Positions 48,256-53,465 of a DNA stretch of 64,000 nt are shown one piece after another. Below the pieces are notes generated by a model. The model did no database searches, was not told the DNA's origin, and saw only the letters and a list, made by a program, of their open reading frames with translations. The translations under genes were made by a program, and so were the position numbers. The stretch is from a virus. Position 1 is the first letter of the stretch. The number at the start of each line of letters is the position of its first letter. The stretch covers positions 1-64,000 of IMG/VR virus record IMGVR_UViG_3300032213_003587, one strand, 5' to 3'.

Positions 48256-48708
48256 ATGTACGCAAAACATACTCACAATGGTCGCTATCCGGTGCGCAAT
48301 TACAACAAGTATATCGGCAATGCGCAGCAGGTATTCTATCGATCCATGTGGGAATTAAAATTCATGAAATGGTGCGACAACAATCCTGCAGTACTAGAAT
48401 GGGGCAGCGAAGAGGTGGTTATACCTTATTTATCGCCGGTGGATGGTCGTGTGCATCGATATTTCGTGGATTTCTTTGTAAAAATTCGAGACGCCAACGG
48501 CAGCGTAAAACGCTATTTGATAGAGATCAAACCCAAGAAATTCACCGAACCACCGAAACGTCCGGCCAAACAGACTCGTCGCTATATTCAGGAAGTCAGC
48601 AGCTATGTCGTCAATCAGGCCAAATGGGAACGAGCTCGAGCCTTCTGCGAAGAGCGGGACTGGCGATTTCTTGTACTCACAGAAAAAGAATTGGGCATAG
48701 ATAAATAA
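48256..48708 (+). CDS. 4: Head completion protein gp4 (gp50), nuclease-fold
   Basis: The ATG at 48256 gives 150 aa, exactly the T4 gp4 length; an upstream extension in the same frame runs into the promoter and was rejected. Gp4 joins filled heads to tails and has a PD-(D/E)XK-like nuclease layout. Seen: RYPVRNYNKYIGNAQQVFYR, SMWELKFMKWCDNNPAVLEW, GSEEVVIPYLSPVDGRVHRY then FVDFFVKI, and the YLIEIKPKK motif with Glu and Lys as the active-site pattern. No clear SD precedes it. Confidence 0.95.
   Translation: MYAKHTHNGRYPVRNYNKYIGNAQQVFYRSMWELKFMKWCDNNPAVLEWGSEEVVIPYLSPVDGRVHRYFVDFFVKIRDANGSVKRYLIEIKPKKFTEPPKRPAKQTRRYIQEVSSYVVNQAKWERARAFCEERDWRFLVLTEKELGIDK
48700..48707 (+). promoter_or_regulatory. 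Late promoter-like motif (GATAAATA) at the gp4 stop codon
   Basis: The plus strand reads GATAAATA over the last codons of gp4 (Asp-Lys-stop), six bases before the next ATG. If used, it would yield an almost leaderless message. No SD is visible there, so this is a weak call. Confidence 0.25.
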
Positions 48709-50014: not shown

Positions 50015-50710
50015 ATGTCGCTACCAACTTTTGATGTTCCCCGTTTTAATGTACAGTTACCGAGCACCGGTGAGACGGTGCAGTTTAGACCGTTCTTAGT
50101 AAAAGAACAAAAACAGCTGCTCATGGCAGTAGCCAACGACAATCAGGAACAGATATCAGCCATTGAGAACATTATTCATGCCTGCAGTTTCGGCAAGGTG
50201 CAGGCACATCGGCTACCGGCCTTTGATGTGGAATATCTGTTTCTACAGATACGCGCTCGCAGCATCGGTGAGAATGTGGACATGCAGTTGACCTGCAACT
50301 GTGGTGAAAAAACCAAGGCTGTACTGGACATCACCAAGGTTGCGGTACAGCATACCGATGGACACAATGCCAGCATTGATTTGGGCGCCGGCATTGTGGT
50401 GCAGATGCGCTATCCGCGACTCACTGAGATTGAAGAATTTGGAGCCGAGCCTTCGGTTGACACCACCATTGCTTTGATTGCTCGTTGCATACAAAGCATC
50501 TGGCAGGATGATGAAATGTTTGCTGCCGAAGATTATAGTTCAGAAGAGCTCATAGAATTTGTGGAAAATCTTCGACCCGGTAATTTAGACACCATCGAAG
50601 AATTTTTCAACACCATGCCTGTGCTGCGCCATCGATTGCAATGGCACTGCAAGGCCTGTGAAAAAGACAACGACGTCGTTGTGGAGGGTATGCAAAGTTT
50701 TTTCGGTTGA
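50015..50710 (+). CDS. 26: Baseplate hub assembly protein gp26 (T4 baseplate family)
   Basis: This encodes 231 aa (T4 gp26 is 208). The T4-baseplate family protein acts as an assembly chaperone for the hub. Seen: NVQLPSTGETVQFRPFLVKE followed by QKQLLMAVAND, the FDVEYLFLQIRARSIGENVD motif, and a split zinc-ribbon-like cysteine set, Cys94-x-Cys96 and Cys212-x-x-Cys215. The last codons contain a slippery T TTT TTC (50698-50704) in the frame needed for -1 frameshifting into the next frame, as lambda gpG extends to gpGT. Confidence 0.92.
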   Translation: MSLPTFDVPRFNVQLPSTGETVQFRPFLVKEQKQLLMAVANDNQEQISAIENIIHACSFGKVQAHRLPAFDVEYLFLQIRARSIGENVDMQLTCNCGEKTKAVLDITKVAVQHTDGHNASIDLGAGIVVQMRYPRLTEIEEFGAEPSVDTTIALIARCIQSIWQDDEMFAAEDYSSEELIEFVENLRPGNLDTIEEFFNTMPVLRHRLQWHCKACEKDNDVVVEGMQSFFG

Positions 50711-50726
50711 TCCTTTCTCATGAAAG
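50698..50726 (+). promoter_or_regulatory. Candidate -1 ribosomal frameshift signal at the gp26 end
   Basis: In the gp26 frame the codons read AGT-TTT-TTC, forming the X-XXY-YYZ heptamer T-TTT-TTC at 50698-50704. The -1 frame is open from 50662 to 50892. A hairpin CTTTC-TCAT-GAAAG (50713-50726) begins 8 nt after the heptamer, which is a standard spacing for a stimulator, though a 5-bp stem is weak. The downstream frame has no ATG before codon 19 and no SD at its only early start (TTG, 50707). Confidence 0.6.
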
Positions 50727-50892
50727 CCTGTTTAATTATTACCAGACCAATTTTAATTTGATGCAACACCATAAGTATAGTTTAACTGAGCTGGAAAATA
50801 TGCTGCCCTGGGAAAGGGAAATTTATGTTATGTTATTAATTAACCACCTTGAAGAAGAAAATAAACGATTACAACAACAAAAGAAGGGGTAG
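50707..50892 (+). CDS. Small gp51-position protein, probably expressed as a gp26 -1 frameshift extension
   Basis: The 61 codons from TTG 50707 encode LFNYYQTNFNLMQHHKYSLT and ELENMLPWEREIYVMLLIN, with a charged end (EEENKRLQQQKKG). The MLPWERE-type motif occurs in lambda GT-like tail chaperone C-terminal domains and in the protein that follows gp26 in aquatic T4-like phages. T4 has gp51 in this position, but that protein is 249 aa. Start evidence is poor, so translation through the slippery site giving a gp26-fusion is favoured. Independent TTG initiation cannot be excluded. Confidence 0.75.
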   Translation: MILSHESLFNYYQTNFNLMQHHKYSLTELENMLPWEREIYVMLLINHLEEENKRLQQQKKG

Positions 50893-50896
50893 TAAC

Positions 50897-51187
50897 ATGA
50901 ATGAAGAACTAAAAGACAAAATAGAATTAGAAAAAGCCACACTGGGATTAAACATTGTTAGAGTATGTACCTATACATTAACTTTTGTAATCATCAGCAT
51001 GTGTGTATCATTGGTTGTTGGTTTGTTCGCACCCAACGATCTGGTAAGCAACGACGAAGTATTTAAAATTCTGAGTCCGGCATTCCAGACCATCATCGGT
51101 GGTTTCATTGGTATCATTACCGGCATTCAAATCGGTAAGTCACAAAAGGATGATGCTCCACCACCCAATGGGCCTGAGGAGGAATAA
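50897..51187 (+). CDS. Small two-helix membrane protein (holin/antiholin candidate)
   Basis: The preferred start is the ATG at 50897, with AAGGGG about 9 nt upstream, giving 96 aa. An upstream in-frame start inside the previous gene was rejected. Two membrane segments are predicted by eye: about 18-44 (TYTLTFVIISMCVSLVVGLF) and about 62-80 (FQTIIGGFIGIITGIQIG). The N-terminus is a charged helix and the C-terminus is Pro/Glu-rich (DDAPPPNGPEEE). It is 2 nt upstream of a holin-like gene and so may be a partner. I do not recognise the family with certainty. Confidence 0.65.
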   Translation: MNEELKDKIELEKATLGLNIVRVCTYTLTFVIISMCVSLVVGLFAPNDLVSNDEVFKILSPAFQTIIGGFIGIITGIQIGKSQKDDAPPPNGPEEE

Positions 51188-51189
51188 TC

Positions 51190-51495
51190 ATGGCTGTGGT
51201 TAATCCCAAAGAAGATTGGATGCAGAATAAATGGCGTCCTGCCATGGGTTGGATGTACATGGTCTGCTGCCTGTTTGATTTTGTGATTTTCCCCATCATG
51301 TTTACCGCAGTACAGTTCTGGGAAACACAGGCAGCCAATGATGCATTTCGTCAATGGGTGCCTATTACCCTGCAGAGTGGAGGATTTTTCCACATTGCCA
51401 TGGGTGCTGTGCTGGGTGTGGCTGCCTATGGACGTACTAAAGAGAAAACAGCAGCCATTGAAAACAATTCCATACCAACCGACAATAAAGAGTAA
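51190..51495 (+). CDS. Holin-like membrane protein (three-TM holin type)
   Basis: This encodes 101 aa and has the strongest SD in the block (GAGGAGG before ATG). Hydrophobic segments are about 16-41 (RPAMGWMYMVCCLFDFVIFP) and 60-79 (TLQSGGFFHIAMGAVLGVAA), with charged ends. The RPAMGWMYM start and the WVPITLQSGGFFHIAMGAVL motif followed by YGRTKEK resemble the 3TM holins also found in gene transfer agents. Holins make membrane lesions that release endolysin. Its place between baseplate and tape measure genes, far from the GH19 endolysin at 63.5 kb, is unusual. Confidence 0.72.
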   Translation: MAVVNPKEDWMQNKWRPAMGWMYMVCCLFDFVIFPIMFTAVQFWETQAANDAFRQWVPITLQSGGFFHIAMGAVLGVAAYGRTKEKTAAIENNSIPTDNKE

Positions 51496-51500
51496 ACAAC

Positions 51501-53465
51501 ATGGCCCGCGGAACTAAAACCAAAAGCAAGGGTATATCCTTAGAAGAATTGATGCAGGCGCAGGAACGCATGATGACTGCCGGCGAACTGTCTGAAAAAC
51601 AACTAGAGATTGCTAAAGAACAGCTAAGCAAATTAGATACCATTGCTAAAGCAGCAGTTGTCAATGATCTACAAATGGCCAAAGAAGATTCGGACATTAG
51701 AAAGATCGTTACAAGAAGAGCAGTACCCGGTTCCGTGGGCCTAGTTGACGTTAAAAATGAAATAAAGAATCTTAGCTCGGATATCAAACGAGGATTGCCA
51801 AAATTCCTGCAGGAAAAAGGTCGGAGCAGCAAGAAAGACGCAGAAGACAAACCGTTAACTGAGGCCGAGCGCAACCAGCGACTCACCAAGCTGGCAGAAG
51901 TCATCGGAGAAAAAGTTAAACTTCAGAAAGGCGGCAGCCTCAATGAAACGCTGACCGCTAAAAATCGCGGAACCTTTGATCAATTTATCAAAGAGACTGA
52001 GCGACGCGATAGCCTGCTGGCAGAGGCCAACGAAGATCAGCGAGAGATATTTCAGCAGATTGAAGACACGTTAATCAAACTTCAGGAAGCCGGCAGTGAA
52101 GACAGCAAGGTCCTGAGAAAAGAATTGGAGCGCCTGCGTGGTGCCATGGAAGCCACTGAGGATACCGGCGCTAAAAAATCACTGATGGGTCTTGCAGAAA
52201 GAACCAGTGAAAATGCTGCTGCGGGTGTGCGCGGCAATCAGGGAACCTTTGGTGATGCATTGAAGGCTCTGCTTGGTCGTCGAGAAGTATTGAAGAGTGG
52301 CATGAGCCGCGACGCCAACGGCGACATATTTAACGCTAAAGGTGAGAAGGTAGATGCCAAAGATGCGGTCATGGGGCGCGGTGCCGCTGCTGGTTCTATA
52401 CTTGGCAATATGATGATGGAAAAATTTGAGCGTGGTTTTGAAAATAAGCGCACGGAAAAGACTCAGAATTTTCTAGACAATTTCCGTTCCACTGAAACAC
52501 GGGCTCGACCAAATATTCTGCAGGGACAGCAGGATCAGCTCATGGGGAGTGGACCTAAAGTTAAAGTTGAAGCGCGAGCCAAGGGTGGTCCTATTGTCAA
52601 AGGTCGACCCTATCTTGTCGGAGAAAAAGGTCCGGAATTAATTGTACCTAAAAGCGATGGTCAGGTAAATCCCTTACCTAAAGCTGAGGTCAAGGAAAAT
52701 ACCATGTTCAGCGATGCCGGTTCATACCGAGCTGACGATGCCGCTGGCCCATTTGCCAAAGGCTCGGAAAAAATTGTCAAGGCCATCAAAGAACTTACTG
52801 ATGTAGTAAAAAATCAACAGAACAACGGCCCGGGCGTTCCGCCTATCATTCCCACAGGCATGGGTGGTAAACCAACTGGTGGTGGCCGCCCAAATGCCGG
52901 CAATGCTGCCAAGGCCGCCAAGAACGTCAAACCCGGTAGTCCCGTAGTCATGGGTCTGTCGTTAATTGCCGGCTATTTTGGCATGAACATGATCGACGAC
53001 ATGGAAGAAAAGGCGCGGGCAGAACGTACGGCCAAATATGATGCCATGATTGCCAGCGGAGATCCTGAACAAGTAGCCAAGGGTCAGTTCATGAAAGAAC
53101 AGGAAATGTCGACCTTTGAAAAATTAGGCAACATTAAAAATCAATTCAATGAATTGAACAGTCCGGAAAGACAGGAACGCTTAAAAGATGCGCCCTGGTA
53201 TACTAGATATCTGGGCATTGGCGACGACTCCGCAGTGGCTCCGAGTCTGCGTCCCGCACAAGGACCGGAAATAGCGGCTCGCACTACTGCCATAGCAGAT
53301 CAACGCTCCGCTGCTGCGGCTCCGGTTATTATCAACGCACCTACTGTGAATGCTCCAACTACCAAGGGCGGTGATAACACAGTAACCACGGTGATGCGAG
53401 CTCCGGTGCGACCCGAAGACAATGCGTTCAATAATTACATGAACCGACTATACAACGCTTTCTAA
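51501..53465 (+). CDS. Probable tail tape measure protein / hub protein
   Basis: This encodes 654 aa. The first 230 residues are strongly helical and charged (AQERMMTAGELSEKQLEIAK). At about residues 360-390 lies the GGPIVKGRPYLVGEKGPELI motif, continued by VPKSDGQ, a signature of many phage tape measure C-terminal regions. A single hydrophobic helix (SPVVMGLSLIAGYFGMNMID, about 480-500) could insert in the host membrane. The remaining part is Pro/Ala-rich (RPAQGPEIAARTTAIADQRS). T4 uses gp29 in this role (590 aa). The assignment is by motif and position; a different hub protein is possible. Confidence 0.65.
   Translation: MARGTKTKSKGISLEELMQAQERMMTAGELSEKQLEIAKEQLSKLDTIAKAAVVNDLQMAKEDSDIRKIVTRRAVPGSVGLVDVKNEIKNLSSDIKRGLPKFLQEKGRSSKKDAEDKPLTEAERNQRLTKLAEVIGEKVKLQKGGSLNETLTAKNRGTFDQFIKETERRDSLLAEANEDQREIFQQIEDTLIKLQEAGSEDSKVLRKELERLRGAMEATEDTGAKKSLMGLAERTSENAAAGVRGNQGTFGDALKALLGRREVLKSGMSRDANGDIFNAKGEKVDAKDAVMGRGAAAGSILGNMMMEKFERGFENKRTEKTQNFLDNFRSTETRARPNILQGQQDQLMGSGPKVKVEARAKGGPIVKGRPYLVGEKGPELIVPKSDGQVNPLPKAEVKENTMFSDAGSYRADDAAGPFAKGSEKIVKAIKELTDVVKNQQNNGPGVPPIIPTGMGGKPTGGGRPNAGNAAKAAKNVKPGSPVVMGLSLIAGYFGMNMIDDMEEKARAERTAKYDAMIASGDPEQVAKGQFMKEQEMSTFEKLGNIKNQFNELNSPERQERLKDAPWYTRYLGIGDDSAVAPSLRPAQGPEIAARTTAIADQRSAAAAPVIINAPTVNAPTTKGGDNTVTTVMRAPVRPEDNAFNNYMNRLYNAF

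Follow-up and report, generated by a model that had tools for sequence, protein, structure and literature searches.

A frameshift of the lambda G/GT type has reportedly been found in HK97, P2 and other phages (Xu, Hendrix and Duda are said to have described it in 2004). The lambda G/GT frameshift is regarded as widely conserved in long-tailed phages "except T4" (PMC5009743). For T4, gp26 and gp51 are classed among the hub assembly chaperones, and gp51 is described as essential and of unknown function (PMC3004832). As presented in the papers that cite them, Vladimirov, Gautam and Davidson (2022, Virology 566:9-15; PMC10885494) identified T4-like tail assembly chaperones consisting of short and fused-long genes, and poly-T slip sites in the TAC-N genes of T4-like phages are credited to the same work (PMC12846349). 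Since such genes had been identified there, the idea of a T4-like tail chaperone pair is not new. From domain matches to T4 gp51 we identify the members of that pair as, in all likelihood, gp26 (short) and gp51 (long), an assignment that fits the citing summaries. A conserved poly-T (GTTTTT) -1 slip site ends the short tail assembly chaperone (TAC) gene of Vandenendeviridae and Andersonviridae (PMC12846349), and in E. coli dnaX an internal SD upstream of the slip site stimulates -1 slippage (PMC5600365).

The window analyzed here is a stretch of 64,000 nucleotides, positions 1 to 64,000 of the IMG/VR virus record IMGVR_UViG_3300032213_003587, which has 116,441 bases in total and comes from an uncultivated virus. 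Its plus strand carries, in order, T4-type genes for a gp4-type head closure protein, a DNA end protector, a tail-tube-type protein and gp26, and T4-type neighbors on the minus strand are a gene of the phrog_350 "tail protein" family, a baseplate wedge subunit and a tail-tube cap. For the head closure protein (48268-48705) there is also a match to PF08722, the N-terminal fold of TnsA-like endonucleases (E 5e-23). The features under study, numbered from the first letter of the window, are as follows.

50015 to 50710, plus strand: gp26, 231 aa, 26.2 kDa, predicted short tail assembly chaperone form (TAC-N or gpG-like); assigned to the PF12322/gp26 family at E 1.2e-61 and to phrog_150, baseplate hub, at E 8.8e-67.
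50683 to 50688, plus strand: SD-like GGAGGG, 9 nt upstream of the heptamer, probable upstream stimulator, with anti-SD pairing above that of synonymous resampling.
50698 to 50704, plus strand: slippery heptamer T_TTT_TTC in the phase of gp26.
50704 to 50892, plus strand: -1 extension with a "gp51 / baseplate hub assembly catalyst" domain, 62 codons plus TAG.
50707 to 50709, plus strand: TTG overlapping the gp26 stop (TTGA), the sole possible start near the junction.
50708 to 50710, plus strand: gp26 0-frame stop TGA, 3 nt past the heptamer.
50713 to 50726, plus strand: 5-bp hairpin, CTTTC (50713-50717) with GAAAG (50722-50726).
51501 to 53465, plus strand: 654-aa protein, probable tape measure protein and presumed client of the chaperone pair.

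This arrangement resembles lambda G/GT, where a short chaperone and its -1 frameshift-extended form are encoded upstream of the tape measure gene; in the window the extended form is predicted and the tape measure gene is a probable one. The slip sites differ, T_TTT_TTC in the window and G_GGA_AAG in lambda, and no sequence homology between lambda T and the extension in the window was detected. Unlike in lambda, two small holin-like genes separate the pair from the putative tape measure gene; these encode membrane-type proteins (50897-51187 and 51190-51495), the second of which matches GTA_holin_3TM (PF11351, E 1.1e-6), and the location is an odd one for holins. The 654-aa protein downstream is probably the tape measure protein, judging by its position, by the motif KGGPIVKGRPYLVGEKGPELIVPKSDG, which we take to be a tape-measure motif, and by a weak match of residues 355-391 to phrog_5062 tape measure (E 0.0045). 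With Vandenendeviridae and Andersonviridae the window shares a short gene that ends in a poly-T -1 slip site, although the phage families differ. With the T4-like chaperones of Vladimirov et al., as the citing papers summarize them, it shares a short gene and a long form fused to a downstream part. The SD-like element and the breadth of conservation described below do not appear in the literature found, where Vladimirov et al. 2022 is represented by papers that cite it.

We conclude, with a probability of roughly 0.93, that a programmed -1 frameshift would yield a gp26 and gp26-gp51 tail assembly chaperone pair in this T4-like phage, as a sequence-only reading of this stretch had proposed. Comparison among relatives backs programmed -1 frameshifting very strongly: the in-phase TTTTTT is invariant, the -1 frame has a pN/pS of 0.25, and a start codon combined with an SD near the junction occurs in 0/61 non-redundant loci.

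The gp26 gene ends GTG GAG GGT ATG CAA AGT TTT TTC GGT TGA, so that T_TTT_TTC lies in the 0-frame phase and has the X_XXY_YYZ form of a tandem -1 slip site; the reading and position given for it beforehand were correct. When homologous gp26 ends were aligned, TTTTTT was found at the same position and in the phase T|TTT|TTN in all 181 loci, and in all 61 that remained after thinning to <80% identity. The seventh base of the heptamer was C in 160 of the 181, T in 12, A in 5 and G in 4. The gp26 stop follows 3-5 codons from the codon with the first heptamer T in 170/181 loci and 11-12 codons from it in the other 11. By comparison, the background rate of TTTTTT is low, as the 42,029 nt of gp26 sequence farther upstream hold just 34 occurrences. 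The invariance of the slip site is not a codon-bias effect, because Phe codons in the rest of the -1 ORF are TTT:TTC 76:29; the chance of obtaining 122 TTT codons from codon bias alone is P about 7e-18, with relatedness ignored.

The 181 loci comprise 80 from IMG/VR retrieved with the gp51 domain as query, 6 retrieved with gp26 alone, 82 retrieved with the Rhizobium and Vibrio versions as query, 12 annotated phages and the window. Most of the domain-seeded loci were anchored on FF, and only the gp26-seeded loci and some of the phage records examined are free of this bias. In the loci retrieved with gp26 alone, TTTTTT is in phase in 6/6. Additional records with T_TTT_TTC are Vibrio V05, Vibrio R10Z, Stenotrophomonas YB07, Aeromonas Aswh_1, Rhizobium LG08, Variovorax V45v66 and Synechococcus MA01, and the slip site is present in nearly all marine and freshwater relatives examined. 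Three Ackermannviridae gp26 relatives and Vibrio phage D507 have a -1 extension with a related motif (GYSIFEISELMPWHLDMLTETL), and there the site reads ATT TTC ATT TAA (CTT TTC AAG TAA in D507) rather than a T6 tandem heptamer, possibly a single-codon slip of another kind.

Starting at 50698, the -1 frame (FFRLILSHESLFNYYQTNFNLMQHHKYSLTELENMLPWEREIYVMLLINHLEEENKRLQQQKKG) extends as far as the TAG at 50890-50892; after the slip it reads CGG TTG ATC CTT onward, giving 62 codons, or 64 with FF included. The predicted fusion product has 292 aa and 33.8 kDa; its fusion-specific tryptic peptide would be DNDVVVEGMQSFFR, where the short form would give DNDVVVEGMQSFFG. The -1 ORF matches phrog_634 (gp51, E 7e-30) and also phrog_150, at the C-terminal end of that family; the N-terminal part of phrog_150 corresponds to gp26. 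A tblastn search with the -1 domain gave matches in 807 phage records at E<=0.1; cyanophages predominate, and Vibrio, Aeromonas, Klebsiella, Rhizobium and other phages are also represented. The MLPWERE motif of this domain had been taken for one of lambda GT type, which found no support: the organism tallies of the tblastn matches name T4-like myovirus groups, with no entry for lambda, and the PHROG families are those of T4-like gp26 and gp51. No sequence relative of the domain was found in the PDB. In 53 gap-free non-redundant loci, pN/pS was 0.25 for the -1 frame, against 1.09 for frame 0 and 2.36 for +1. By this measure the -1 frame is under purifying selection and is a true coding sequence; the start-codon counts given below make it a dependent one. 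One record, IMGVR_UViG_2974754850_000001 (2001-2746), has a gp51 match of 746 nt, which is not a multiple of three and leaves the frame broken, possibly through a sequencing error or because it is a pseudogene.

A coding -1 frame could also be expressed as a free-standing gp51 by translational coupling or re-initiation near the gp26 stop, as annotations imply: a TTG overlaps the TGA in the window (TTG 50707), and the annotations of P-SSM2 and S-PM2 place the start of gp51, an ATG, directly after the gp26 stop. We consider this very unlikely. The downstream frame opens with neither ATG nor SD, as had been noted from the letters alone, since its first ATG in the window is at codon 22 and no SD stands at a usable distance from TTG 50707. 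The position of the start is not conserved among relatives, 32 of the 61 non-redundant relatives lack any ATG, GTG or TTG between -1 codons -10 and +12, and the refuting case named beforehand, relatives in which a start with its own SD replaces the heptamer, was not found (start with SD near the junction in 0/61, heptamer in 61/61). Re-initiation also leaves unexplained both the invariant TTTTTT and the T4 counterpart, which is fused in frame at an equivalent join.

The frameshift reading is strengthened by an element that the sequence-only reading had not picked up, an SD-like GGAGG conserved 9-10 nt upstream of the slip site. Over the 21 nt that precede the slip site in the 61 non-redundant loci, anti-SD pairing was -6.5 kcal/mol, compared with -4.9 kcal/mol after synonymous resampling that re-draws codons with each gene's own codon usage (Wilcoxon p 2e-7, phylogeny ignored). 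SD-like cores cluster at -15 to -13, and the excess of anti-SD pairing was absent in all six control windows farther upstream. The GGAGGG of the window is thus a probable upstream stimulator of -1 slippage, judged by this comparison. Both dnaX and the window have a tandem slip heptamer with an upstream SD or SD-like element; unlike in dnaX, a conserved downstream structure was not found in the window.

The 5-bp hairpin that begins 8 nt after the slip site is present in the window, as had been pointed out, but its role as a downstream stimulator was rejected. A hairpin of at least 5 bp occurs at this position in only 8/61 relatives, below the 13.6 expected from synonymous resampling, and the hairpin is probably a by-product of coding Leu-Ser-His-Glu-Ser. 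Folding energy downstream of the slip site was only weakly below control (p 0.019), and Rfam gave no match. In programmed -1 frameshifts an upstream internal SD and a downstream RNA structure are both common, though neither is required. As the hairpin is not conserved, no strong 3' stimulator is known.

Slippage might instead be transcriptional, with a base added on the T run in a fraction of mRNAs so that the fusion is read directly; a pure T run does exist. RNA polymerase generally needs a longer run to slip, as most loci have six T and no more. Moreover, the T|TTT|TTN phase is that of tandem ribosomal slippage, and the SD-like element lies at ribosomal spacing and is under selection, which makes this explanation very improbable. 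Still less credible is a protein of about 43 aa starting at an internal conserved ATG (codon 21/22, LMQHHKYS), as in the annotation of Pelagibacter phage Mosig. ATG occurs 55 times at codons 21/22 among the 53 gap-free loci (both positions counted), but only 1 of the 55 has an SD, and conservation of the first 20 codons and of the heptamer would be left unexplained. Homopolymers are frequent sites of sequencing and assembly error, but the possibility that such an error split one gene is negligible and refuted by conservation, the arrangement recurring in 181 loci and isolates that were assembled independently and come from several sequencing efforts.

Under the programmed -1 frameshift, the majority of ribosomes would terminate at TGA 50708 and produce the 231-aa short form, while a fraction would slip at T_TTT_TTC and produce the 292-aa fusion with the gp51 domain. 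Some 9 nt ahead of the slip site, the upstream GGAGGG would pair with 16S rRNA and help the ribosome to slip. If the pair acts as lambda gpG/gpGT do, the short form would coat the tape measure, the C-terminal domain of the long form would recruit a tail or hub component, and both forms would be absent from the finished virion. We infer the occurrence of slippage, its rate and the binding of the tape measure.

The G/GT-like chaperone pair proposed beforehand is supported. The predicted long form combines gp26-family and gp51 domains in the manner of T4 gp51. Structure predictions for gp26 (AlphaFold2, mean pLDDT 93) and for a T4-type gp51 (pLDDT 87.5) were both confident. In BFVD the T4-type gp51 model hits models of the gp26 family, with E 2.3e-9 to Aeromonas phage 25 gp26. 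A structure search of the PDB with the gp26 and T4-type gp51 models gave no significant match; for the gp26 model the HK97 chaperone 2ob9 came seventh, as a weak hit with E 2.2, a probability of 0.23 and a TM-score, by target length, of 0.43.

T4 and the Tevenvirinae differ from the window in having two separate, divergently placed genes instead of one gene with a -1 frameshift: in T4, gene 26 is on the minus strand and gene 51, encoding 249 aa, is on the plus strand. Residues 1-201 of T4 gp51 give an end-to-end match to PF12322, the gp26 family; phrog_634 is matched by residues 147-246, and the full length matches phrog_150. By eye, T4 gp51 lines up with SFFRLILSHESLFNYYQTNFNLMQHHKYSLTELENMLPWEREIYVMLLINHL across the junction. 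As judged from these matches, T4 gp51 is an in-frame fusion of a gp26-family domain and a phrog_634 domain, joined at the equivalent point. Because of the PF12322 and phrog_634 matches and the junction alignment, it can be regarded as a directly encoded version of the predicted frameshift product. The sequence-only reading had overlooked this natural fusion, and also that the downstream domain is the one annotated as gp51. The Phe-Phe is kept in Tevenvirinae gp26 and is spelled TTC TTT in 8/8 readable loci, the eight being closely related; with this spelling the slip site is lost. In Campylobacter phage CJLB-13 (around 1500-2230), gp26-like and gp51 domains lie in one unbroken ORF.

No joined (frameshift) feature was present in the roughly 20 annotated records of gp26/gp51 type that were examined. 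The expectation that such pairs usually go unannotated therefore holds for the frameshift; gp51 itself, on the other hand, is often annotated as a free-standing gene. In NC_031944, NC_062734, MH791414 and others, the -1 domain is unannotated or gp51 is started at arbitrary internal ATGs. What many records list as a free gene, "gp51, baseplate hub assembly catalyst", most likely represents no more than the C-terminal portion of a frameshift fusion.

In PMC5009743, T4 figures as the exception to a conserved tail chaperone frameshift, yet the slip site is found in most of the T4-like relatives examined, and the separate gp51 of T4 is the equivalent of the frameshift product. A simple prediction follows that is testable in laboratory cyanophages. 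A tentative history, to which we give somewhat less than an even chance, is that the ancestor of the T4 superfamily carried just one chaperone gene, which frameshifted with an internal SD of the dnaX kind as stimulator, and that the Tevenvirinae duplicated this gene, fixed the long form as gene 51 and erased the slip site of gene 26 (T_TTT_TTC to TTC TTT). If true, an SD-driven, hairpin-free slip site would be a general and previously undescribed stimulator arrangement for phage chaperone frameshifting.
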